Origin: Nakamurella alba
GTDB taxonomy: Bacteria > Actinomycetota > Actinomycetes > Mycobacteriales > Nakamurellaceae
DNA: 64,000 nt
Assembly (NCBI RefSeq): GCF_009707545.1
Contig: NZ_WLYK01000001.1
Span: forward strand, 1,116,001-1,180,000
Direction: 5' to 3'
A program made the translations under genes and the position numbers. Shown here in pieces: positions 1 to 42,731 of the stretch. Position 1 is the first letter of the stretch, and the number at the start of each line of letters is the position of its first letter. Below the pieces are notes generated by a model. It was given only the letters and a program-made list of their open reading frames with translations, was not told where the DNA came from and did no database searches.

Positions 1-658
1 GCTGCTGGGCCAGCTCTACACGCTGCTCGGCACCTTCTCGAGCCAGCTGCTGGAACTCCGCCTCGAGGAGACCGTCGCCGGTGCCGTCATCGGCATCCTG
101 GTCTCGTTGCTGGTGCTGCCCACGCACAGTCGGGCCACCCTGAGGGTGGCGCGAAAGGACTTCCTGGACCAGCTCGGCGGTCTGCTGGACGGGGTCGCGG
201 ACACGCTCGACGGACGGACACCGGAGAACGACCTGATCGGCGGGGTGGTCGGCCTGGATGCTGCGGCCCGGCAGCTGATCCGGTTGCGCCGCGGACTCAC
301 CCGGGGTCGGCTCTTCGGCGGTGACCGGGTCGCCACCCGGCACCGGGTGTCGGTGCTGAGCAGCTGCGCGGCAGCGGCCCGGACCCTGGCCGTGGCGACC
401 GGCACGCCGGGTACCGCGCGCCCGGAGCTGGCGGAGGCCGCCCGCACCTTGGCGACCGAGGCGCGGCGGTTGGCCGACGTCCCGGCACTGGTCGACGTCC
501 GGGCGGACGAGAACGGCGGTCCGGCCGGTGATGTCGCGGAGTCGCTGGACCACCTGGACCCGTCGGTGCGGCCGGCCGTCCGGCGCGCCCTGCGCCGGCT
601 CGCCGACGGGCTGGCCCTGCTGGGACCCCGCCCGGTGCCGGAGGTCAGCGCACGCTGA
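1..658 (+). CDS. FUSC-like membrane protein, C-terminal part (5' end outside window)
   Basis: Reading frame 2 is open from the first base to TGA at 656-658. The visible residues begin with a hydrophobic stretch (VAGAVIGILVSLLVLP) preceded by RLEETVAG and followed by a soluble Ala/Arg/Leu-rich helical tail of about 180 residues. The pattern of R-x-E-E-T, a glycine-rich helix and a cytosolic tail resembles the C-terminal membrane half of FUSC/aromatic-acid-exporter-like proteins. This is inferred from pattern, not alignment. The start lies upstream of the window, so length and membrane count cannot be judged. Its last 14 bases overlap the end of the convergent beta-helix gene. Confidence 0.55.
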   Translation, partial: LLGQLYTLLGTFSSQLLELRLEETVAGAVIGILVSLLVLPTHSRATLRVARKDFLDQLGGLLDGVADTLDGRTPENDLIGGVVGLDAAARQLIRLRRGLTRGRLFGGDRVATRHRVSVLSSCAAAARTLAVATGTPGTARPELAEAARTLATEARRLADVPALVDVRADENGGPAGDVAESLDHLDPSVRPAVRRALRRLADGLALLGPRPVPEVSAR

Positions 659-2150
659 ACGGCACAGCCACGCTGTCGGCCGTGTTGCCGGCGGCGTCGG
701 TGGCCCGGGCGACGACGTGATAGGTCCGTCCCTTGGTCAGCGCCAGGGTGTTCACCGGCAGCTTCCACTGCCCGCCGGACAGCGTCGCGGCACCGAAAGG
801 CACGGTGTCCACGAGGATCTGGACCGAACGCACGCCGGACTTGTCGTCCGTCGCCGACGCGGTGAAGGTGGCCGACCGGGTGGCGGACGCGCTCGAGCCG
901 CGGGTGGGGGAGGTGACCCGGACGTCCGGTGCCCGTCCGTCCGCGCCGTCCGTCCGCGACGAGGTGGCCGAGACCTCCACCACCGCACCGGCCGTCGCAC
1001 CGGCCGTCGTGCCGGCGAGCGCGGTCCCCTTCCGGTCCAGCGCCGCGCTCTTCCTCGCGCCGACCGGGCTGATCACCGTCTGCGCCGGATCGACCGGCCG
1101 CAGGTCGTGCCTGGTCCGGTTGACCACATCGACGACACCGTAACGGTTCCCGTTGTTCCCCAGTGCAGACGGAACGCGGCAGAGGCCGAGGTTCCAGCGG
1201 GCGACGACGGTGTTGGTCATGACGGCGCCGCAGTCGGAGAGGTAGTCGACGATGTTGCGGTCGAAGACGGCGCCGGGGGTGGTGATGCGGGCGGCGCCGT
1301 CGAGGAAGGTGTTGTTGCGGACGGTGATGCCGGTCATTTTGGTGTAGCGCAGGTCGATGCTGGTGCCGCCGTTGCAGGCGGCGGACTTGACCAGGCAGCC
1401 CTGGACGAAGTTGGACTCGACGAGGACGTCGTTGACGCCCCAGCCGGATCCGGGGGAGAAGATGATGCCGGCGTTGTAGCAGTTGGCCAGGGTGTTGCCG
1501 CGCAGGGTGATCTTGTTGGCGTCGTAGATCTGGATGCAGTCGGCGTGGTAGCCGGTGGAGCCGCCCTTGGTCTGGTTGTAGTCGTGGACGTAGTTGTTCT
1601 CGACGAGCACGTTGGTGGCGCGGGAGATCTGGATGCCGTCGAGTGAGGAGCCGTCGCGGAACTCGGAGTTGCGGACGGTGACGTTGTTGGAGCGCAGGAA
1701 CATGCCGCCGCCGTCGAGCAGGGCGCCGTCGACGGTGGTGCCGGTGGCGGTGGAGTAGATATAGAAGGTGATGGTGACGGTGACGTTCTTCCACACCAGG
1801 TTGGGGGCGTAGGTGCCCAGGCGGCCGAAGGTGGCGGTGGCGCCGGTGGCGGGGCGGACGGTGACCGGGGCGGTGGTGGTGGCCTTGCCGCCGCGGACGT
1901 CGACGTTGCCGTAGGAACCGCCGGCCAGTTGCACGACACTCCCGGCGGTGGCGGCGGACACGGCGGTGGTCAGCGCGCAGGGACGGGCGGGGGTGCACTC
2001 GGTGCCGCTGCCGGCGGGAGAGACGTAGAGGGTGCGGGCGGCCGCGGCGGCCGACGACGCGGACGAGATCCCGACCAGGCCGCCGAGGACCAGCAGCAGG
2101 GGCAGCAACAGCCGGACCAGTCGGCGGGTGCGGCGCGGGACGGCACGCAT
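645..2150 (-). CDS. Secreted right-handed parallel beta-helix protein with C-terminal Ig-like domain
   Basis: 501 residues. The N-terminus is a Sec signal peptide: basic MRAVPRRTRRLVR, then an Leu-rich core and an Ala-rich cleavage region near residue 38. Residues about 40-330 carry beta-helix repeats with short N/V/T-rich turns (NNVTVRNSEF, NVLVENNYVHDY, NKITLRGNTLANC), as in pectate-lyase-like and right-handed beta-helix proteins that bind or cleave polysaccharides. Residues about 400-501 look like an Ig-like fold (VRSVQILVDTVPFG, then DAAGNTADSVAVPFSVR). No catalytic residues can be assigned, so enzyme versus adhesin is open. Probably exported to the cell surface or medium. Confidence 0.8.
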   Translation of the reverse strand: MRAVPRRTRRLVRLLLPLLLVLGGLVGISSASSAAAAARTLYVSPAGSGTECTPARPCALTTAVSAATAGSVVQLAGGSYGNVDVRGGKATTTAPVTVRPATGATATFGRLGTYAPNLVWKNVTVTITFYIYSTATGTTVDGALLDGGGMFLRSNNVTVRNSEFRDGSSLDGIQISRATNVLVENNYVHDYNQTKGGSTGYHADCIQIYDANKITLRGNTLANCYNAGIIFSPGSGWGVNDVLVESNFVQGCLVKSAACNGGTSIDLRYTKMTGITVRNNTFLDGAARITTPGAVFDRNIVDYLSDCGAVMTNTVVARWNLGLCRVPSALGNNGNRYGVVDVVNRTRHDLRPVDPAQTVISPVGARKSAALDRKGTALAGTTAGATAGAVVEVSATSSRTDGADGRAPDVRVTSPTRGSSASATRSATFTASATDDKSGVRSVQILVDTVPFGAATLSGGQWKLPVNTLALTKGRTYHVVARATDAAGNTADSVAVPFSVR

Positions 2151-4981: not shown

Positions 4982-5245
4982 GTGGGGGAATCAGGTGCGG
5001 GGCGATGGCGGATCAGCCGGGTCGTGACGGCGCTGGTGATCGGATGGTGGGCGCTGTTCACGCAGGTCGCCGGTCACGTGCGCGGGTCGGGGACAGGGGA
5101 GCGGGACCGCGGGGACGTGCCGGGGTGGGTGATGATCACGGTGATGACCGCCATCACCGTGGTCGCGCTGCTGGTGGTGTTCCGGGACCAGGTGACCGAG
5201 GCGGTCACCGAGGCGTTCGACAAGGTCCGGCAGGGTGGCGACTGA
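4982..5245 (+). CDS. Small Flp-pilin-like membrane protein
   Basis: 87 residues from GTG 4982, chosen because AGGGGAAGAG precedes it at good spacing. One hydrophobic segment near the N-terminus (VVTALVIGWWALF) and a second after RDRGDVPGW (VMITVMTAITVVALLVVF), then a short amphipathic tail. The sequence D-R-G-D-V-P-G-W next to a hydrophobic helix recurs in short actinobacterial proteins encoded beside tadE/tadG and is taken as Flp-pilin-like. The Glu at +5 of classical prepilins is missing, so processing by prepilin peptidase is uncertain. First gene of a four-gene cluster. Confidence 0.6.
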   Translation: MGESGAGRWRISRVVTALVIGWWALFTQVAGHVRGSGTGERDRGDVPGWVMITVMTAITVVALLVVFRDQVTEAVTEAFDKVRQGGD

Positions 5246-5640
5246 TCGACCGGCGCGGCGGTGCCGGCCGCCGGGACCGGGGGTCCTCCGTCGCCGAGTT
5301 CTCGATGGTGCTGGTCCTGCTGCTGACGCTGTTCCTGGCGCTGCTGTCGGTCGGACTGTGGGCGTGGGTCCGGGTGATGCTGACCTCTGCGGTGACCGAT
5401 GCGGCGAGATGGGCGGCCGCCGAGGGTGTGCCGGTGGCGGCCGCCACCGAGCGGGTCCGGGCCGCCCTCGGCGACGGCCTGCTCGCCTCCACCTCCGGCA
5501 CGCTGCGCTGCGAATCGGTCGACGAGGGGCTGCTGGTGCGGGTCAGCTGCACGATGACCGCACCCGGACTGATCTCACCGCTGGACGGGGCGCTGCCGGA
5601 GATCACCGTGACCGGCCACGCCCTGCGCGAACGCCCCTGA
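5242..5640 (+). CDS. TadE-like pseudopilin (probable CTG start)
   Basis: About 132 residues. The N-terminus has the pseudopilin signature GSSVAEF followed by a long hydrophobic helix (VLVLLLTLFLALLSVGLWAWV), as in TadE proteins that are cut by prepilin peptidase and help assemble Flp pili. No ATG, GTG or TTG lies between the signature and a GTG 117 bases upstream inside the pilin gene. The first ATG inside (5305) would delete the signature. CTG 5242 overlaps the pilin stop as CTGA and has GGGTGG just before it, so I take it as the start by inference. Two cysteines in the C-terminal half (near residues 92 and 104) could pair outside the membrane. Confidence 0.75.
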   Translation: MIDRRGGAGRRDRGSSVAEFSMVLVLLLTLFLALLSVGLWAWVRVMLTSAVTDAARWAAAEGVPVAAATERVRAALGDGLLASTSGTLRCESVDEGLLVRVSCTMTAPGLISPLDGALPEITVTGHALRERP

Positions 5641-6089
5641 CAGCCGAGAACACCGACGGCGGCCGCGCGGTCATCGAGGTGCTGGTACTGGCTGTGCTGG
5701 TGTTGCTGCCGGTCACCTGGATCCTGCTGTCACTGCTCCGGCTGCAGGCCGCATCGCTGGGCGTGGACCAGGCGGTACGACAGGCGGTACGGGCGCTGGA
5801 TGCGGCGCCGTCGGTGGGCATCGGCATGGAGCGGGCCCGGCTGGTCGCCGGCGTCGCGCTGCAGGACCAGGGCATCGGGACCGACGGGATGGTCGTGTCG
5901 GTGGTGCCGGTCGGTGCGGGATGCGCTGCGCCGCCGGTGGTTCCCTCGCTGCGGCCGGGCGCCGTCTACGACGTCTGCGTGCGGGCGACGGTGACCCTGC
6001 CCGGCGTGCCCTCGATGCTGTCCGGGACCGCCAACACCGCGACCGGAGTGCTCACCTGGCATGTCGGCGAGCTGCGGGAGGGCCGGTGA
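5637..6089 (+). CDS. Second TadE-like pseudopilin (probable CTG start)
   Basis: About 150 residues. Signature GGRAVIE then a hydrophobic helix (VLVLAVLVLLPVTWILLSLL) gives a type IV-like prepilin site with Glu at +5. As in the preceding gene, no ordinary start codon lies between the signature and a GTG 400 bases upstream in this frame, while GTG 5679 would remove the signature. CTG 5637 overlaps the upstream TGA as CTGA. The C-terminal part has a few cysteines and a beta-rich pattern. Probably a minor pseudopilin of the same Tad-type apparatus. Confidence 0.7.
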   Translation: MTAENTDGGRAVIEVLVLAVLVLLPVTWILLSLLRLQAASLGVDQAVRQAVRALDAAPSVGIGMERARLVAGVALQDQGIGTDGMVVSVVPVGAGCAAPPVVPSLRPGAVYDVCVRATVTLPGVPSMLSGTANTATGVLTWHVGELREGR

Positions 6090-6496
6090 GCGGGCGCGGG
6101 CCTGTCGGTGACCGGGGATCGGTGGCGCCGTTGGTGATCGGCATGGCGCTGGTGCTGCTGGTGCTCGGCTATGCGGTCACGGCTGCCGGGTCGGCGTTCC
6201 TGCAACGGCAACAGCTGCAGGCGCTCTGCGACGGGGCCGCGGCTGCCGCGGGTGACACCGTGCGCCCGTCGGAGACGGGTGGCCCGGGACCCAGGCCGGC
6301 CACCGCCGCGGCGGCCGCAGCCCTGCGTTACCTCTCGACCCGCGATGCCGATGTCCGGGTGCAGGTCTCGGTGTCGGCCGGGGCTGCGACGGTGCAGTGC
6401 GCCCGGCTCGCGCCGGTCGTGTTCGGCGAGCTGTTCGGCAGTCCGCAGGTGGAGGTCGGGGTGACGGCGGTCGGCCGGCCTGCCGTGCGTCCGTGA
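6086..6496 (+). CDS. TadG-like pilus assembly protein, short
   Basis: 136 residues from GTG 6086, which overlaps the previous stop as GTGA. The N-terminus DRGSVAPLVIGMALVLLVLG is the TadG/Flp-assembly membrane anchor, followed by FLQRQQLQALCDGAA, the conserved stretch after the helix. The remainder is a small extracytoplasmic Ala/Val-rich domain. Much shorter than classical TadG (over 400 residues); short forms of this kind end many actinobacterial tad clusters. Last gene of the cluster; no TadB, TadC or peptidase follows. Confidence 0.75.
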   Translation: MSGRGPVGDRGSVAPLVIGMALVLLVLGYAVTAAGSAFLQRQQLQALCDGAAAAAGDTVRPSETGGPGPRPATAAAAAALRYLSTRDADVRVQVSVSAGAATVQCARLAPVVFGELFGSPQVEVGVTAVGRPAVRP

Positions 6497-24805: not shown

Positions 24806-25657
24806 GTGTCGACTGGTGTGGTGCTGGTGGTGCTGCTCGCGGCCGTGCTGCACGTCTTCTGGAACACCCTGGTCAAGCGGGAGTCCGACGGATTCCTGGC
24901 CACGGTGGTGATCGCCGCCGGGGGTGCGCTGATCTGTGCGGTGGCGTTGCCCTTCCTGCCGCCGATCGCGCCGGCCGCCTGGCCCAACGTGGCAGGCTCG
25001 GTGGTCGCGCAGTCGATCTACTATCCGCTGGTCGCCGCGGCCTACCGGGCCGGTGACATGACCGTCGCCTACCCGATCATGCGCGGCACCGCGCCGCTGC
25101 TCGTCGCGGCGGTCAGTGCGCCGCTGCTGGGCGAGATCCTCGGCGCCGCACAGTGGATCGGCATCGGCGTGATCTGCCTGGGGATCTGGGCGGTGGGCGG
25201 CGGGGCGATCCTGCACCGGGGCCCGGGCCGGAGTTCGGCGCGCGGCGTGCTGCTGGCACTGGTGAACGCCGGGGTGATCGCCACCTACACGCTGATCGAC
25301 GGTGCCGGGTCCCGGGCGTCCGGTTCCCCGGCGACCTACACGGCCTGGATCTTCCTGCTCACCGCCGTCCCGATGCTGGTGATGGGCGCGGTGCAACACC
25401 GCGGCCGGCTGCTGCCGGCGCTGCGCGGCCGGTGGTGGGTGGGGCTGGCCGGCGGCGCCGGGAACGTCGGCGCGTACGGGCTGGTGCTGTGGGCGATGAC
25501 CCTGGCGCCGGTGGCGGCGGTGGCCGCCCTGCGCGAGACGTCGATCATCGTCGCCGCGGTCGTCGGCGCGGTCCTGCTGCACGAGAAGGTGGACCGCTAC
25601 CGGATCGCCGGCGCGGTGCTGATCGCCGCCGGCGCGGTGGTGCTGCGCCTGGCCTGA
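24806..25657 (+). CDS. EamA/DMT family transporter
   Basis: 283 residues with ten membrane helices in two EamA halves; first half starts VVLVVLLAAVLHVFWNTLVKR, second at ARGVLLALVNAGVIATYTLID. Inner-membrane exporter of small metabolites, substrate unknown. GTG 24806 chosen because family members start just before the first helix and because GATACT ends 7 bases before it, the spacing of a leaderless actinobacterial promoter. An ATG at 24755 would add 17 polar residues and is less likely. Confidence 0.82.
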   Translation: MSTGVVLVVLLAAVLHVFWNTLVKRESDGFLATVVIAAGGALICAVALPFLPPIAPAAWPNVAGSVVAQSIYYPLVAAAYRAGDMTVAYPIMRGTAPLLVAAVSAPLLGEILGAAQWIGIGVICLGIWAVGGGAILHRGPGRSSARGVLLALVNAGVIATYTLIDGAGSRASGSPATYTAWIFLLTAVPMLVMGAVQHRGRLLPALRGRWWVGLAGGAGNVGAYGLVLWAMTLAPVAAVAALRETSIIVAAVVGAVLLHEKVDRYRIAGAVLIAAGAVVLRLA

Positions 25658-25737
25658 TGGTCCGCTGATCGTCCGGCAGTCGTCTGCCGTGGGCGGACAG
25701 GCCTGCGGTTGCGGCGGGTCGGTGCCAGCATGCCGGG

Positions 25738-26643
25738 ATGGACGACGTGAGATTCGGGGTCAACCTGCGCAGCGCGCTGCCGGCGGACGCGTTGGCGGCG
25801 CAGGTGCGCGGAGTCGAGGACGCCGGGTTCGACATCCTTGCGATGCCCGACCATCTCGGTGCCCCGTCACCCTTCGCCATGCTGGCCGCCGCCGCGATGG
25901 CGACACGGACGGTCCGGCTGCGGACCTCGGTGCTGGACGCCACCTGGTGGAACCCGGCGATGCTCGCCCGGGAGCTGGCCACGGTCGACGTGCTCAGCGG
26001 CGGCCGGGTGGAGCTCGGCGTCGGCGCCGGGCACATGAAGGCCGAGCACGACCTGGCCGGGCTGCCCTGGTTCGCGTTCCCGGAGCGGATCGCCCTGCTG
26101 GAGCAGCTGATCGACGGCACCGCGGCGCACCTGGACCGACCGGACCACGACCCGCCGCCGGTACAGCGGCCGATACCGGTCATGGTGGGTGCCATGTCCG
26201 CGGCCGGACTCGACATCGCGGCCCGCAAGGCCGATGTCGTCGCGTTCGCCGGGTTGCGGCAGCTGCGTGGGCGCCGGCTCGGCGAGTTCGGGTTCGTGAC
26301 GCCGGCCGAGACCGACGAACGGGTGGCGGAGGTGCGCCGGATCCGGCGGGCGCACGGCGACCGGCCCTACGCCTCCGAGGTGCTGCTGCAACTGGTCTCG
26401 GTCGACCGCGACCCGGACGAGGCGGCGGCGGGGTTCGCCGCCCAGCTGGACGGCGCGATGAGCCCGGCGCAGGTCCGTGAGTCGCCGTTCCTGCTGCTGG
26501 CCGGATCCCCGGAGGCCGCGGTGCAGGTGCTGGCGGAGCGGCGGGACCGCTACGGCTTCGACGTGTTCTCCGCCCACCACCGTTCGCAGGACCAGTTGAC
26601 CCTGGTCATCGCGGCAGCGCGATCAGCCCACCGTGACGGGTGA
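25738..26643 (+). CDS. LLM class (F420-type) oxidoreductase
   Basis: 301 residues, a luciferase-like TIM barrel. FGVNLRSALPADALAAQVRGVED at the start, MPDHLGAPSPFAMLAA, the cofactor-contact LDATWWNPAMLARELATVDVLSGGRVELGVGAGH, and VMVGAMSAAGLDIAARKADVVAF. Resembles the actinobacterial F420-dependent subgroup, whose members reduce or oxidise varied metabolites. Substrate unknown. Its 3' end overlaps the convergent MscS gene by 21 bases. Confidence 0.87.
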   Translation: MDDVRFGVNLRSALPADALAAQVRGVEDAGFDILAMPDHLGAPSPFAMLAAAAMATRTVRLRTSVLDATWWNPAMLARELATVDVLSGGRVELGVGAGHMKAEHDLAGLPWFAFPERIALLEQLIDGTAAHLDRPDHDPPPVQRPIPVMVGAMSAAGLDIAARKADVVAFAGLRQLRGRRLGEFGFVTPAETDERVAEVRRIRRAHGDRPYASEVLLQLVSVDRDPDEAAAGFAAQLDGAMSPAQVRESPFLLLAGSPEAAVQVLAERRDRYGFDVFSAHHRSQDQLTLVIAAARSAHRDG

Positions 26644-27768
26644 GGCCTGCTGCGCCGGGACCGTGCCGGGCAGCGGCGGCACACCGGGGACGACACGCAG
26701 CCGCGGCAGCGCGGCCGGGTGGTGCTGCTGCAGGAACAGCACCAGGTCCTCCCGGATGTCGCAGCGCAGGTCGAACAGGTTCGGGCTGTCCGCGGCCGAC
26801 ACCAGGATCCGCACCCGGACGTAGGAGGACACCGCGTCGGTGACCTGGACGATCCCGACCCGCTCGTCCCACCGGCTGTTGCCGGCCAGGTGCTCACGCA
26901 GCCGCGCGCGGACGTCGTCGACCGGCACCGTCCAGTCGAGGTCGAGCTCGACGGTGCCGAGCATGCCCGCCTGCTGCCGGGTCAGGTTCTCGAACGGGGT
27001 GGTGGTGAAGTAGGTGGACGGCAGGATCAGGCTGCGTTCGTCCCACACCCGGACCACCACGTAGGTCAGCGTGATCTCGTCGATGTTGCCGAAACGCCCC
27101 TCCACCACGACCACGTCGTCCACCCGGATCGCGTCGGTGAAGGCCAGTTGGATCCCGGCGAAGACGTTGGCCAGGGCGCTCTGCGCGGCCAGGCCGGCGA
27201 CGATGGAGATCAGGCCGGCCGAGGTCAGCACGCCGGCCCCGGCGATGCGGGCGCCGGGGAAGGTGAGCAGGGCGGCGCCGAGCCCGAGCACCACCAGTGC
27301 CGCCACCACGATCCGCCGCACCAGGGTGATCTGGGTGCGGATGCGCCGGATCTGCCGGTTGCCCTCGCGGGACATGTCGAACCGGGTGAGCAGCAGCTCG
27401 GTGGCGACGATGACGGCGACCGCGAGCAGCCAGGTGATCCCGGCGATCAACGCCAGGGTGAACACCCGGTCGGTGATCTCCCGCCACCGGGCCGGTGCCG
27501 TCGTCGCGTGCGCGCCGATCTGCGCGCCGACCAGCGACAGGGTCCAGCGCAGCGGTCGTCGGGCGGCGCCGGCGGAGGCGGCCACGGTCGACCAGCGACG
27601 GGTGAGCCGGAGGGCCGTACGGGCGAGGACGCCGGCCAGCAGGAAGCCTGCGGTCGCCGCGGCCAGCGTGATCAGGATGGGCAGACCCGTTGCGCGGAAC
27701 AGGCTCTCGGCGTCCGCGACCAGGCCGTCGGGCTCGGCGGCCAGCTGGGTGCCGGGGGTGGGGATCAT
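26623..27768 (-). CDS. MscS family mechanosensitive channel
   Basis: 381 residues from ATG 27768 (GGAAGGAGACC upstream); an ATG nine codons earlier is the alternative. Helices at about 25-48, 85-110, 130-155 and 165-185; the pore helix and beta domain follow with QSALANVFAGIQLAFTD, RVDDVVVVEGRFGNIDEIT and LPSTYFTTTPFENLTR. Opens under membrane tension to release solutes during hypo-osmotic shock. Extra N-terminal helices compared with E. coli MscS (286 residues) are common in actinobacteria. Confidence 0.9.
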   Translation of the reverse strand: MIPTPGTQLAAEPDGLVADAESLFRATGLPILITLAAATAGFLLAGVLARTALRLTRRWSTVAASAGAARRPLRWTLSLVGAQIGAHATTAPARWREITDRVFTLALIAGITWLLAVAVIVATELLLTRFDMSREGNRQIRRIRTQITLVRRIVVAALVVLGLGAALLTFPGARIAGAGVLTSAGLISIVAGLAAQSALANVFAGIQLAFTDAIRVDDVVVVEGRFGNIDEITLTYVVVRVWDERSLILPSTYFTTTPFENLTRQQAGMLGTVELDLDWTVPVDDVRARLREHLAGNSRWDERVGIVQVTDAVSSYVRVRILVSAADSPNLFDLRCDIREDLVLFLQQHHPAALPRLRVVPGVPPLPGTVPAQQASPVTVG

Positions 27769-28074
27769 CGTCGGGTGGTCTCCTTCCGGGTGCATGTCCT
27801 GTCATTCCAGGGGAGCACGGATGACGGTGAGCGACGGGAGATCGAGCGGTGAGGCTTCTCACCGGTGGTCTGTGCGACGGCTGCGCATCCTTCGGCGCCT
27901 CACTCGTCCAGGCGATCAACAGCACCCAACGTGACTGTGCTGAAAGCGTGATGGGCGAGTTCGAGTGAATACCATTGTGTGCCCTGGTGTCACATGTCGG
28001 GTCCGTGTGAACATCTGGCTGCGTCCGAACAGGTGATGGACCGCAAACCGGCGACGAATTACGGGAGGACGACG

Positions 28075-29253
28075 ATGACCGCAACGCGGTGGCGGGGACT
28101 GGCAGGCGGAGCGCTGGCGGCAGCGGTGCTCACGGCGGGCGTACTGGTCGGGACGGCCGGTTCGGCGGTGGCGGCCCCGCTGGGGGAGTTCACCGTCACC
28201 CCGGACACGGTCGCACCGGGCGGCGGTTTCACCTTCGCCGGCACCGGCTGCCTGCCGATGGAGCTCGGCGAGCCGGATCCGCAGGTGCTGCTCTACATCC
28301 TGGCGGTCAACGGCGAACCGGTGGTCCCCGTGCGGACCACCAAGGGCACGTCGGCCCCGACGGACCAGGTGATCGCCACGAGCCGGGCCGAGCCGACCGA
28401 TCCGGTGCCGTCGACCGTGGCCGAGGTCCGCGGGTCCGCCCCGGCGGACGAGACCATCATCGACGTGGTCGACGTGCAGCCCGACGGCACCTGGGCCGTG
28501 ACGTACCCGCCGGGCGAGACGGTCGCCGGTGTGGTGTTCACCATCGGCGCGCTCTGCAGCGGCTACAACTCGAGCTTCGAGTACGAGCCGGTGAAGCTGA
28601 CCTTCGAGAGCGGGCCCGCGGAGATGTACCTGCCCGGCTTCGCGGCCGGTGCGGTCCCGCAGGTCCGCCCGGGTCTGACCTACGACGTGGTCGGCTTCTT
28701 CTTCGAGCCGGGCGAGGAGGTGTCGCTGGCGATGGACGGAACACCGGGGTCGCTGGGCACCCTCATCGCCGACGAGAACGGTGATGTGGCCGCCACCTTC
28801 ACCGTCCCCGCGGGGATGCCGGCCGGGCAGTACACCCTCACCCTGACCGGCCTGACCTCGGGGATCACCTCGCAGACCGTGGTGCAGGTGCTGTCCGCAT
28901 CCGCACCGGTCACCACCACCGTGACCACGGTGCCCTCTGTGACCACTGTGACCACGGTGCCCATTGCGCCTGCCGCTCCGACCGGATCCACCGCCGCCGG
29001 CGGATTCCCGGTGACCGCGGTCCCGGTGGCGGCCACCGGCACCGACCTGGCCTCGGCCGGCGCCGCGGGAACCACGGCCGGCACGCCTGATGCCTCCCAG
29101 CCGGCCGGGTACTCCGGCGGCGGGTACGTCGACCCGCAGCTGGCCTCCACCGGGACCGATGCCGGCGTCCTGCTGCCGATCGGCGCGCTGATGGCGCTGG
29201 CCGGAGCGGGTCTGCTGTTGGCCGGCCGTCGCCGGGCGGTCCGCCACCACTGA
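28075..29253 (+). CDS. Secreted Ig-like surface protein with LPXTG-like C-terminal sorting tail
   Basis: 392 residues from ATG 28075 (GGGAGGACGACG before it). Signal peptide 1-35 ending AVAA. Residues about 40-130 and 175-275 form two Ig-like beta domains (FTVTPDTVAPGGGFTFAG; LTYDVVGFFFEPGEEVSL). A Thr/Val repeat (TTVTTVPSVTTVTTVP, about 280-297) and a Gly/Ala/Thr linker follow. The end is LASTG (about 356-360), a hydrophobic helix and RRRAVRHH: the layout of a sortase-anchored wall protein, though LASTG departs from LPXTG and no sortase gene is nearby. Function unknown. Confidence 0.75.
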   Translation: MTATRWRGLAGGALAAAVLTAGVLVGTAGSAVAAPLGEFTVTPDTVAPGGGFTFAGTGCLPMELGEPDPQVLLYILAVNGEPVVPVRTTKGTSAPTDQVIATSRAEPTDPVPSTVAEVRGSAPADETIIDVVDVQPDGTWAVTYPPGETVAGVVFTIGALCSGYNSSFEYEPVKLTFESGPAEMYLPGFAAGAVPQVRPGLTYDVVGFFFEPGEEVSLAMDGTPGSLGTLIADENGDVAATFTVPAGMPAGQYTLTLTGLTSGITSQTVVQVLSASAPVTTTVTTVPSVTTVTTVPIAPAAPTGSTAAGGFPVTAVPVAATGTDLASAGAAGTTAGTPDASQPAGYSGGGYVDPQLASTGTDAGVLLPIGALMALAGAGLLLAGRRRAVRHH

Positions 29254-29264
29254 TCCACGTACTG

Positions 29265-29305
29265 CGCAGGGGCCGTCCGACAACTCCGGTCGGACGGCCC
29301 CTGCG
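29265..29305. terminator. Strong hairpin, 17-bp stem, 7-base loop
   Basis: CGCAGGGGCCGTCCGAC (29265-29281) pairs perfectly with 29289-29305. It sits 12 bases after the stop of the surface-protein gene. There is no T-run, as is common for GC-rich actinobacterial terminators. Confidence 0.75.
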
Positions 29306-29389
29306 TGCGTAGGCTAGCCTTCCCGAAGGCGGGCCGGATCTGATCGTCCGGGCCCGGGTGCGGTGGACCAGGACAGGCGGGGACGAGCT

Positions 29390-29590
29390 GTGGGCAAGTC
29401 GGGCACCAAGGCCGGGAAGTCCAAGAAGGCGAACGGGTCCGGGAAGAACAATCCCGGGAAGGTGAAGCTCCCGAAGAAGGAGTGCTGCGTCGACAAGCCC
29501 CGCTGCGGCCGTTGCCCGCTGCGTGCTCTCGCGGAGGGCACCCTTCCCGCCGGCTACACCGTGCGCCACCGCAAACTCGTCAAGGTCTGA
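29390..29590 (+). CDS. Small Lys-rich Cys-containing protein, conserved in actinobacteria
   Basis: 66 residues from GTG 29390 with GGGGA 6 bases before it. First 30 residues are Gly/Lys/Ser-rich and highly basic. Then comes the motif CC-x(3)-PRC-x-RCP (residues about 37-47), four cysteines that could hold a metal, and a basic end (RHRKLVKV). Short actinobacterial proteins with this KxCCxxxPRCxRCP motif are familiar but uncharacterised. The charge suggests nucleic acid or ribosome contact (speculation). Convergent with the LLM oxidoreductase gene. Confidence 0.65.
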   Translation: MGKSGTKAGKSKKANGSGKNNPGKVKLPKKECCVDKPRCGRCPLRALAEGTLPAGYTVRHRKLVKV

Positions 29591-29629
29591 GGGTCGCCCG
29601 GCCCGGCAACGATCTCACCGGCAACGTTG

Positions 29630-30709
29630 TCATGGGAGCAGCCGGAAGGTCTCCCGCTCGCGCGCGCGGTAGGTGGTCCGGGTGGCGAGTGCCGACCTGA
29701 CCGCCGGTGCCACCTCGGTGGCGAACAGTTCGATCGAACGGCGCACCAGGGAGGACGGCAGTCCGCCGAGGTCCACCTGGCCGAGGAACCGGTCCAGGTC
29801 CAGGGTGTCGTGCGCCAGCAGCAGCTTGTCGATCACCTGCGCCGGGCTGCCGACGGCCATCGCGCCGTGCGGCCCGGCCAGGGTGTCGAAGCCGTCGCGG
29901 TCGATCGCCCAGCTCCGGTCCCGACCCCGCGGTCTGCTGTACTGCCGGTAGTACGGGAAGAACGTGTCGATCGCCTGCTGCGAGGTCTCGGCGATGTAGA
30001 GGTGACTGGTCACGCCGAGCCTGGTGCCGGCGGCCGGTGCGCCCGCCTTCGCCGCGGTGCGCCGGTAGAGATCGGTGATCGCCCGGGCGCCACGGACGTC
30101 GCCGCCGATCAGCCCGAGCATCATCGGCAGACCCAGGCGGCCGGCCCGCATGGCGGACTGCGGGGACCCGCCGACACCGACCCACACCGGCAGCTCGTCC
30201 TGCGCCGGGCGGGGTGCGATCTGGGCGTCGCGCAGCGCCGGCCGGTAGGCACCGGACCAGGTCACGCGCTCCGAGCGACGGAGTTGCAGCAGCAGGTCCA
30301 GCTTCTCGGCGAAGATCTCGTCGTAGTGCTGCAGGTCGACGTCGAAGAGGTCGAAGGGCTCCACGAAAGCGCTGCGCCCGGCGATGATCTCGGCCCGGCC
30401 GCCGCTCAGCAGGTCGAGCCCGGCGAAGTCCTCGTGCAACCGGACCGGGTCCAGTGCGCTGATCACCGACACCCCGCTGCTCAGCCGGATCCGGCGGGTG
30501 CCCTGGGCGATGGCGGCGAGGGTGACAGCCGGCGAGGACACCGCGAAGTCGAGCGTGTGGTGCTCGCCGAGCGCGACGACGTCCAGGCCGAGCCGGTCGG
30601 CGAGGATGCCGTACGACACGATGTCCTGGACCCGGCGGCCGGGGTCCTGGCGTCGCCCGGTGACCGGGTCGACCTGGAGGTCGCTGAGGGACAGGATGCC
30701 CAGATCCAC
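29630..30709 (-). CDS. LLM class flavin-dependent oxidoreductase
   Basis: 359 residues, a luciferase-like barrel of the larger subtype: LGILSLSDLQVDPVTG, ALGEHHTLDFAVSSPAVTLAAIA (cofactor-side loop), RLSSGVSVISALDPVRLHEDFAGLDLLSGGRAEIIAGRS and PVWVGVGGSPQSAMRAGRLG. Likely FMN-dependent monooxygenase; substrate unknown. GTG start at 30709. No close operon partner. Confidence 0.87.
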   Translation of the reverse strand: MDLGILSLSDLQVDPVTGRRQDPGRRVQDIVSYGILADRLGLDVVALGEHHTLDFAVSSPAVTLAAIAQGTRRIRLSSGVSVISALDPVRLHEDFAGLDLLSGGRAEIIAGRSAFVEPFDLFDVDLQHYDEIFAEKLDLLLQLRRSERVTWSGAYRPALRDAQIAPRPAQDELPVWVGVGGSPQSAMRAGRLGLPMMLGLIGGDVRGARAITDLYRRTAAKAGAPAAGTRLGVTSHLYIAETSQQAIDTFFPYYRQYSRPRGRDRSWAIDRDGFDTLAGPHGAMAVGSPAQVIDKLLLAHDTLDLDRFLGQVDLGGLPSSLVRRSIELFATEVAPAVRSALATRTTYRARERETFRLLP

Positions 30710-41343: not shown

Positions 41344-42630
41344 TCACGACTGACGGTCGTCCGTGTCCTCGCGCAGCAGGTCGGTGAGGACGAATCCGTG
41401 CCGGGCGAAACGGTCCTCGTGCGGCGGGAAGCCCTGCGCGCGGACCAGTCGCCCGTGCCGGGTGATGAAGAGGTCGGCGACCTCGACGACACCGGCCTCG
41501 ACACGGCCTGGCAGGGCGACGATCTCGCGGACGCGGCGGGACCCGTCCGGCTCCAGACCGGCCTGCACCACGATGTCGACCGAGGACGCGACGGTCGGCA
41601 CCACGAACGATGCGGTGACGTTCTCGCCGGCCAGCAGCGGCAGCGTGCACAGCTTGACCACCGCCTCCCGGGCGGAATTGGCGTGCACGCTGCACATCCC
41701 GGGCAGGCCGGAGTTGAGCGCGATCAACAGGTCGAGCGATTCCTCCTGCCGGACCTCGCCGACGACGATGCGGCTGGGCCGCATGCGCAGGGCCTCCTTG
41801 ATGAGCCGGCGCAGCCGGATCTCGCCGTGGCCCTCGAGGTTGGGCTGCCGGGTCTGCAGCGCCACCACGTCCGGTAGTTCGGGCTTGAGCTCGAACACTT
41901 CCTCGGCGGTGATGACGCGTTCGCGGGCGGGCACGGAGTTGACGAGAGCGCCGAGCAGGGTGGTCTTCCCGGCCTGGGTGCCGCCGGAGACGATGATGTT
42001 GAGCCCGGCCGTCACCGCGGCCTCGAGGAAGCGCGCGGCTTGGGCGGTGAGACTGCCACGGGCGACGAGGTCCTCGAGGCCGGGGGCGGCGACGACGAAC
42101 TTGCGGATGTTGACGGCGACGTGGTCGCGGGTGATGTCCGGGATGACGGCGTGCAGCCGGGAGCCGTCGGGCAGCAGGGCGTCGACGAAAGGCGAGGACA
42201 GGTCGATCCGGCGGCCGGAGGGTTTGAGCATCCGCTCGAGCAGGTCACGGACCTCGTCGCCGGTGAGCACCGTGGTGGTCAACTCGGACCGGCCGTGCCG
42301 GGCCACGAACACGCGGCCGGGCTGGTTGATCCAGATCTCCTCGACGTCGGGGTCGTCGAAATAGCGTTGCAGCGGGCCGAATCCGGCCAGCGCGTCGAAG
42401 ACGGTGCGGTGCACGGCGGCCCGGTCGTGCAGTGCCGGGAGAGCGCTGCTGCCGGCGCGTTCCTCGTAGTGCGCGATGACCTCGTCGATGAGCCGGCGGG
42501 CTCCGCGGTGGTCGGTGACCGGGTCGAGGCCGCGGCGCCGGACCAGTTCTCGGACCTCGTCGTGGACGTGGTCCAGTGCGGTGGCCCGGTCCGTGCCGGG
42601 CGCAGCCGTGATCGCCGATGGTGCCGCCAT
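41344..42630 (-). CDS. CpaF/TadA-type secretion ATPase (stand-alone)
   Basis: 428 residues from ATG 42630 (GAGGGGGAACGATC before it). N-terminal helical domain, then the secretion NTPase core: Walker A GGTQAGKTTL (216-225), Asp-box RPNLEGHGEIRLRRLIKEALRMRPSRIVVGEVR in pieces, and His-box GMCSVHANSAREA. Powers assembly of Flp/Tad pili or related type II/IV-like systems at the cytoplasmic face. TadB/TadC membrane partners are not adjacent; pseudopilin genes that could use it lie at 4.98-6.50 kb. Upstream gene is divergent, so it is transcribed alone. Confidence 0.92.
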   Translation of the reverse strand: MAAPSAITAAPGTDRATALDHVHDEVRELVRRRGLDPVTDHRGARRLIDEVIAHYEERAGSSALPALHDRAAVHRTVFDALAGFGPLQRYFDDPDVEEIWINQPGRVFVARHGRSELTTTVLTGDEVRDLLERMLKPSGRRIDLSSPFVDALLPDGSRLHAVIPDITRDHVAVNIRKFVVAAPGLEDLVARGSLTAQAARFLEAAVTAGLNIIVSGGTQAGKTTLLGALVNSVPARERVITAEEVFELKPELPDVVALQTRQPNLEGHGEIRLRRLIKEALRMRPSRIVVGEVRQEESLDLLIALNSGLPGMCSVHANSAREAVVKLCTLPLLAGENVTASFVVPTVASSVDIVVQAGLEPDGSRRVREIVALPGRVEAGVVEVADLFITRHGRLVRAQGFPPHEDRFARHGFVLTDLLREDTDDRQS

Positions 42631-42731
42631 GATCGTTCCCCCTCGATGCGACGGACCCGCCCCCGGATCCATCCCTTCCCCTTGCGGATGAGCCTACGCC
42701 CGGATCCCACCTGTCGGGCAGGATCGGGAGC

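Follow-up and report, generated by a model that had tools for sequence, protein, structure and literature searches.

Comparative sequence analysis of the tad pilin loci of Nakamurella points to two different answers for two neighbouring pseudopilin genes that both lack an obvious start codon. The first, tadE1, is probably one long gene that is entered from upstream, at an ATG at position 5005 in Nakamurella alba, and the second, tadE2, in the same proposal most likely starts on a CTG at position 5637. With less assurance, the balance of the evidence also leans towards the small pilin gene flp being wholly nested, out of frame, in the tadE1 leader, an arrangement that would have arisen at least twice in the Actinobacteria (in Nakamurella and in Agromyces) and would tie minor-pilin synthesis to tadC while Flp was made freely from its own start. 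Open frames, start positions and their conservation were observed directly, and the way in which the genes would be translated is deduced from the comparison.

The pilin cluster of Nakamurella alba

The window analysed is a stretch of 64,000 nt of the N. alba genome, the plus strand of which carries a cluster of a small Flp-like gene, two TadE-like genes and a TadG-like gene. The features of the cluster are as follows.

4982..5245, plus strand: small Flp1-like pilin gene (flp), GTG start proposed, stop TGA at 5243-5245; includes RGDVPGWVMITVMTA
4993..4997, plus strand: Shine-Dalgarno-like AGGTG, 7 nt 5' of ATG 5005
5005..5640, plus strand: tadE1 as proposed, with an ATG start and 211 aa; frame open from 4774, architecture as in orthologues
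5242..5245, plus strand: CTGA at the flp stop, the CTG probably not being the tadE1 start; GTAG or GTAA in 8 of 14 orthologues of like geometry
5281..5298, plus strand: tadE1 prepilin peptidase motif G-SSVA-E, Gly at 5281
5637..6089, plus strand: tadE2, encoding the second TadE-like pseudopilin, its candidate CTG start forming CTGA with the tadE1 stop
5637..5640, plus strand: tadE1-tadE2 junction CTGA; ATGA or GTGA here in relatives
5661..5678, plus strand: tadE2 prepilin motif G-RAVI-E, Gly at 5661
6086..6496, plus strand: TadG/Rv3654c-like gene, its GTG start forming GTGA with the tadE2 stop; matches Pfam Tad PF13400 at E=3e-8

The flp product gave a weak Pfam Flp1_like match (E=8e-5, below the cut-off), and its GTG start was picked by a Shine-Dalgarno-like GAGG and by length. 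The tadE1 product has the mark of a TadE-like pseudopilin, a G-x4-E prepilin motif with a hydrophobic helix behind it, and residues G, A, E and F are invariant in 13 orthologues. When tadE1 is read from 5005 it shares its first 80 codons with flp, read there in the -1 frame; residues 1-92 form a hydrophilic leader, and the Pfam TadE match (E=2e-9) falls on residues 93-135. A TadE match of E=9e-10 was also obtained for tadE1. The tadE2 product has a prepilin motif and no Pfam match of its own.

In other Nakamurella species tadC lies directly 5' of flp, and the tad operon of N. alba seems to have been broken into three places. The tadBC genes are at genome position C1:1103744-1105192, so that tadC ends at contig position 1105192, some 15.8 kb upstream of the flp-tadE-tadE-tadG cluster (window 4982-6496), and is followed by an unrelated frame; a tadA-type ATPase gene stands alone at window 41344-42672 on the minus strand. 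Between tadBC and the pilin cluster, at window 645-2150 on the minus strand, is a gene for what is probably a secreted right-handed beta-helix protein with bacterial Ig domains. The same genome carries a second tad cluster, with TadE, two T2SSF and T2SSE matches, on the minus strand of contig C13 at 24914-30330 (loci L002 and L068).

Start codons at the flp-tadE1 junction

An earlier sequence-only reading of this DNA placed CTGA at 5242-5245 and at 5637-5640 and GTGA at the third junction, and held that neither tadE frame has an ATG, GTG or TTG until deep in the previous gene; the junctions were borne out, the GTGA lying at 6086-6089, and a frame-by-frame listing of starts confirmed the absence for both tadE1 and tadE2. 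The two CTGA junctions are real but they are not equivalent. A last codon ending in C followed by TGA always gives CTGA, so that a CTG overlapping a TGA is not rare in itself, and the lack of a near start is common to 14 of the 16 other Nakamurella species at the first junction and nearly private to this genome at the second. The idea that paired CTG restarts set pilin stoichiometry falls, as the two junctions have different explanations.

Upstream of its motif the tadE1 frame offers CTG 5242, GTG 5125, GTG 5047, ATG 5044, ATG 5005, GTG 4903 and others further up; GTG 5125, GTG 5047, ATG 5044 and ATG 5005, the nearest standard starts, all lie within flp. TadE1 was found in all 17 species of Nakamurella, the sole genus of its family in the search. 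From the last 60 nt of flp to the prepilin motif 14 of the 16 other species have no ATG, GTG or TTG, and in these TadE1 invariably uses the frame with a four-base overlap of the flp stop; the remaining two (G007 and G012) use a different frame and have nearer starts. The codon overlapping the flp stop is CTG in six of the 14, GTA (as GTAG or GTAA) in eight and a standard start in none. The CTG at 5242 does not, then, occupy a site where orthologues start, and with GTA in eight species and never a standard codon, restart on CTG is not the genus-wide route to TadE1.

It is unlikely that tadE1 is nevertheless translated by ribosomes that stop at the end of flp and restart there on a non-AUG codon, whether CTG in N. 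alba or GTA in sister species. The frame of the four-base overlap is kept in 15 of 15 Nakamurella cases and the codons that follow sometimes resemble a protein N-terminus (VTDPADRG, VADRG), but the -1 frame is the only one left stop-free by flp, so that the geometry is forced. Moreover, loci elsewhere in the class that do start here use GTG or ATG, and a restart at this point leaves unexplained why the frame reaches back without a stop to a standard codon at tadC. A start at the NTG made by the PGW codons of flp was also discarded, CTG being present there in more than half of the species and forced by the Trp codon. A programmed -1 frameshift yielding a Flp-TadE1 fusion would account for the constant -1 phase of TadE1 relative to flp and for the absence of any start codon separating the two. 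However, no conserved slippery heptamer (X-XXY-YYZ) was found in the flp frame, the cleavage site of a fused protein would be expected, from topology, to follow the Flp membrane helix and to face away from prepilin peptidase, across the membrane, and frameshifting needs no open frame upstream of flp, yet the frame is open there. The fusion is extremely improbable and was rejected on the missing slippery site and the membrane topology.

A probable upstream start for tadE1

When the tadE1 frame is read backwards in the Nakamurella orthologues it is open across the whole of flp and the preceding spacer. In 13 of the 14 species without a near start a standard start is found between -1 and +14 nt relative to the tadC stop, nine of these being exact ATGA or GTGA overlaps with that stop, the usual geometry of termination-reinitiation, and the fourteenth species has a tadE1-frame ATG at +67. 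An outer frame with a standard start 5' of flp and no stop through flp is therefore present in 14 of 14 species with tadC adjacent and no near start, and the frame is kept even though the tadC-flp spacer varies from 27 to 207 nt. The sequence-only reading had accepted that orthologues with a clear start elsewhere would count against restart on CTG, and for tadE1 such starts are what the orthologues have, their frames being open back through flp to a standard codon at or near the tadC stop.

Under a null model of synonymous flp recoding, a Markov-resampled spacer and a random frame, the chance of an upstream start was between 0.02 and 0.32 per species (13 species). The product, approximately 1e-15, is overstated, as it treats related species as independent; the class survey described below is a better control, itself made without tree correction. 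The proposal is weakened by the fact that frames in high-GC DNA are often open by chance, and by G007 and G012, whose other, nearer starts mean that shorter forms may also be made. Codon-position GC was tried as a way to show that the tadC-flp spacer is coding, but there was no signal in the tadE1 frame (GC1/2/3 0.72/0.70/0.70), a result that was counted against nesting. A spacer without GC codon bias implies a leader without visible amino-acid constraint, and it seems to be the open frame, not the sequence, that is conserved.

The TadE1 leader is 98-168 residues long in Nakamurella and rich in Arg, Pro, Gly and Asp. All the leaders are hydrophilic and none is hydrophobic enough for a membrane helix, whereas the stretch after the motif is. 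Such a leader could remain cytoplasmic and offer prepilin peptidase the cleavage site that follows the motif Gly, and the enzyme would then remove the leader. In the operon typical of the genus (tadC-flp-tadE1-tadE2-tadG), ribosomes ending tadC would restart on the ATG or GTG that overlaps or adjoins its stop. They would then read the hydrophilic leader across flp, out of its frame, and continue into the prepilin motif and the rest of TadE1. Flp would start independently from its own Shine-Dalgarno site and would thus be wholly nested in tadE1; the two do not share a single initiation site, the Nakamurella flp having its own Shine-Dalgarno-like site 27-207 nt after the tadC stop. The minor pilin would in this way be coupled to translation of tadC, and flp made separately.

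In N. alba tadC is not adjacent, and the choice of the tadE1 start rests on analogy and on a Shine-Dalgarno match. The frame is still open from 4774, and GTG 4903, GTG 4813 and GTG 4780 are possible starts, but ATG 5005, positioned behind AGGTG, is by analogy with the orthologues most likely the best. It lies 23 nt inside flp, so that nesting in the window would be partial unless an upstream GTG is used.

Distribution in the Actinobacteria

A class-wide survey of actinobacterial loci, to which the Nakamurella loci were added, indicates that the normal state is a tadE1 start near the flp stop (about 90 other loci). An upstream start at the tadC stop was present in 17 of 18 loci without a near start, compared to 8 of 97 with one (Fisher p=2e-13), and when only same-frame loci were considered the figures were 17 of 18 and 8 of 41 (p=6e-8). 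The four loci outside Nakamurella that lack a near start are all from Agromyces, a genus in which a start no more than 25 nt from the tadC stop occurs in 45 of 48 loci, in 39 of them as TGATG. About half of the Agromyces loci also have a GTG, TTG or ATG between flp and the motif, and shorter forms of TadE1 may therefore be made as well. In a TadE1 tree the Nakamurella sequences group together (support 1.0), apart from those of Agromyces, which suggests that the nested arrangement probably arose twice. Four class loci outside Agromyces (L101, L126, L135 and L155) combine a near tadE1 start with one at the tadC stop from which the same frame is open, and these could possibly be intermediates of the nested state.

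The tadE1-tadE2 junction

At the second junction the comparison gives a different result. The only starts in the tadE2 frame upstream of its motif are CTG 5637, CTG 5547, CTG 5508 and ATG 5409, the last inside tadE1. A near standard start for tadE2 is present in 88 of 90 loci with a readable junction, the two exceptions being N. alba (CTGA) and N. endophytica (ATAA), and ATGA or GTGA occupies the exact site in 13 of 16 Nakamurella species and in 33 of the 44 further loci surveyed that are not from Agromyces. The earlier reading had suggested checking whether CTGA alternates with ATGA or GTGA in related genomes; it does so here, and not at the first junction, where ATG, GTG and TTG never occur. 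Restart on CTG, proposed for both junctions, stays plausible for tadE2 and finds no support for tadE1, where eight species have GTA. This is the only one of the two junctions at which a CTG in a four-base overlap stands where orthologues start. Given the 13 of 16 species with ATGA or GTGA, a CTG start is the simplest reading for tadE2, and CTG 5637 would be a substitution of the ATG or GTG of relatives in the same overlap. The ATAA junction of N. endophytica (L006) might represent an ATA start for tadE2, or a lost start.

The main rival, which is possible but distinctly less probable, is that tadE2 starts at ATG 5409 within tadE1 and that the start at 5637 has been lost, CTG being a first step along the path taken at the first junction; that junction itself makes an upstream start less far-fetched. 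The tadE2 frame is open from 5196, GGTGA lies upstream of the ATG and a sister species also lacks a start at the junction; however, an 84-residue leader would be required and nearly all the loci surveyed retain a near standard start. CTG is, in addition, the next-best start codon after ATG, GTG and TTG. It is very unlikely that a sequencing or assembly error changed GTG or ATG to CTG at 5637; the ATG or GTG of relatives at this place would fit such an error, but there is no other sign of error and both reading frames are intact. A start on CTG 5637 remains the plausible reading for tadE2.

Known overlapping genes and implications

To our knowledge, long same-strand nested genes have rarely been documented in bacteria, and no description of flp-tadE1 nesting was found in the part of the literature that was covered. 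The closest precedent is rnpA/rpmH of Thermus, where a small gene lies entirely, and out of frame, within an N-terminal extension of the gene that follows, with an initiation site that was called unique among those reported from bacteria up to that time (PMC9841429). In both systems a small gene with its own start lies inside the N-terminal extension of the next gene. In Thermus, however, two AUGs 1 nt apart share one Shine-Dalgarno sequence, whereas the outer start of flp/tadE1 is at the stop of the previous gene, well before the nested start, and flp has a Shine-Dalgarno sequence of its own. Termination-reinitiation gene pairs with overlaps of -4 or -1 nt are known as coupling devices (PMC10666635), and the junctions of tadC with the tadE1 frame, like those among tadE1, tadE2 and tadG, resemble them in their ATGA/GTGA and TGATG overlaps; they differ in that the restarted tadE1 would cross a third gene, flp, before its conserved domain and that the second junction would use CTG. 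The actinobacterial flp-tadE-tadG clusters of the Rv3656c-Rv3655c-Rv3654c type have the same gene order and families as the window, but their usual members start tadE near the flp stop.

For annotation, the absence of a start near the motif need not imply an exotic start codon, and gene finders may truncate these tadE genes or misplace their starts. The nested pair would appear to have been kept, its start tied to the stop codon of the gene before, in about 14 Nakamurella loci and 45 from Agromyces, and the series of loci with a near start, with both or with an upstream start only would provide natural material for testing the origin of such overlaps.
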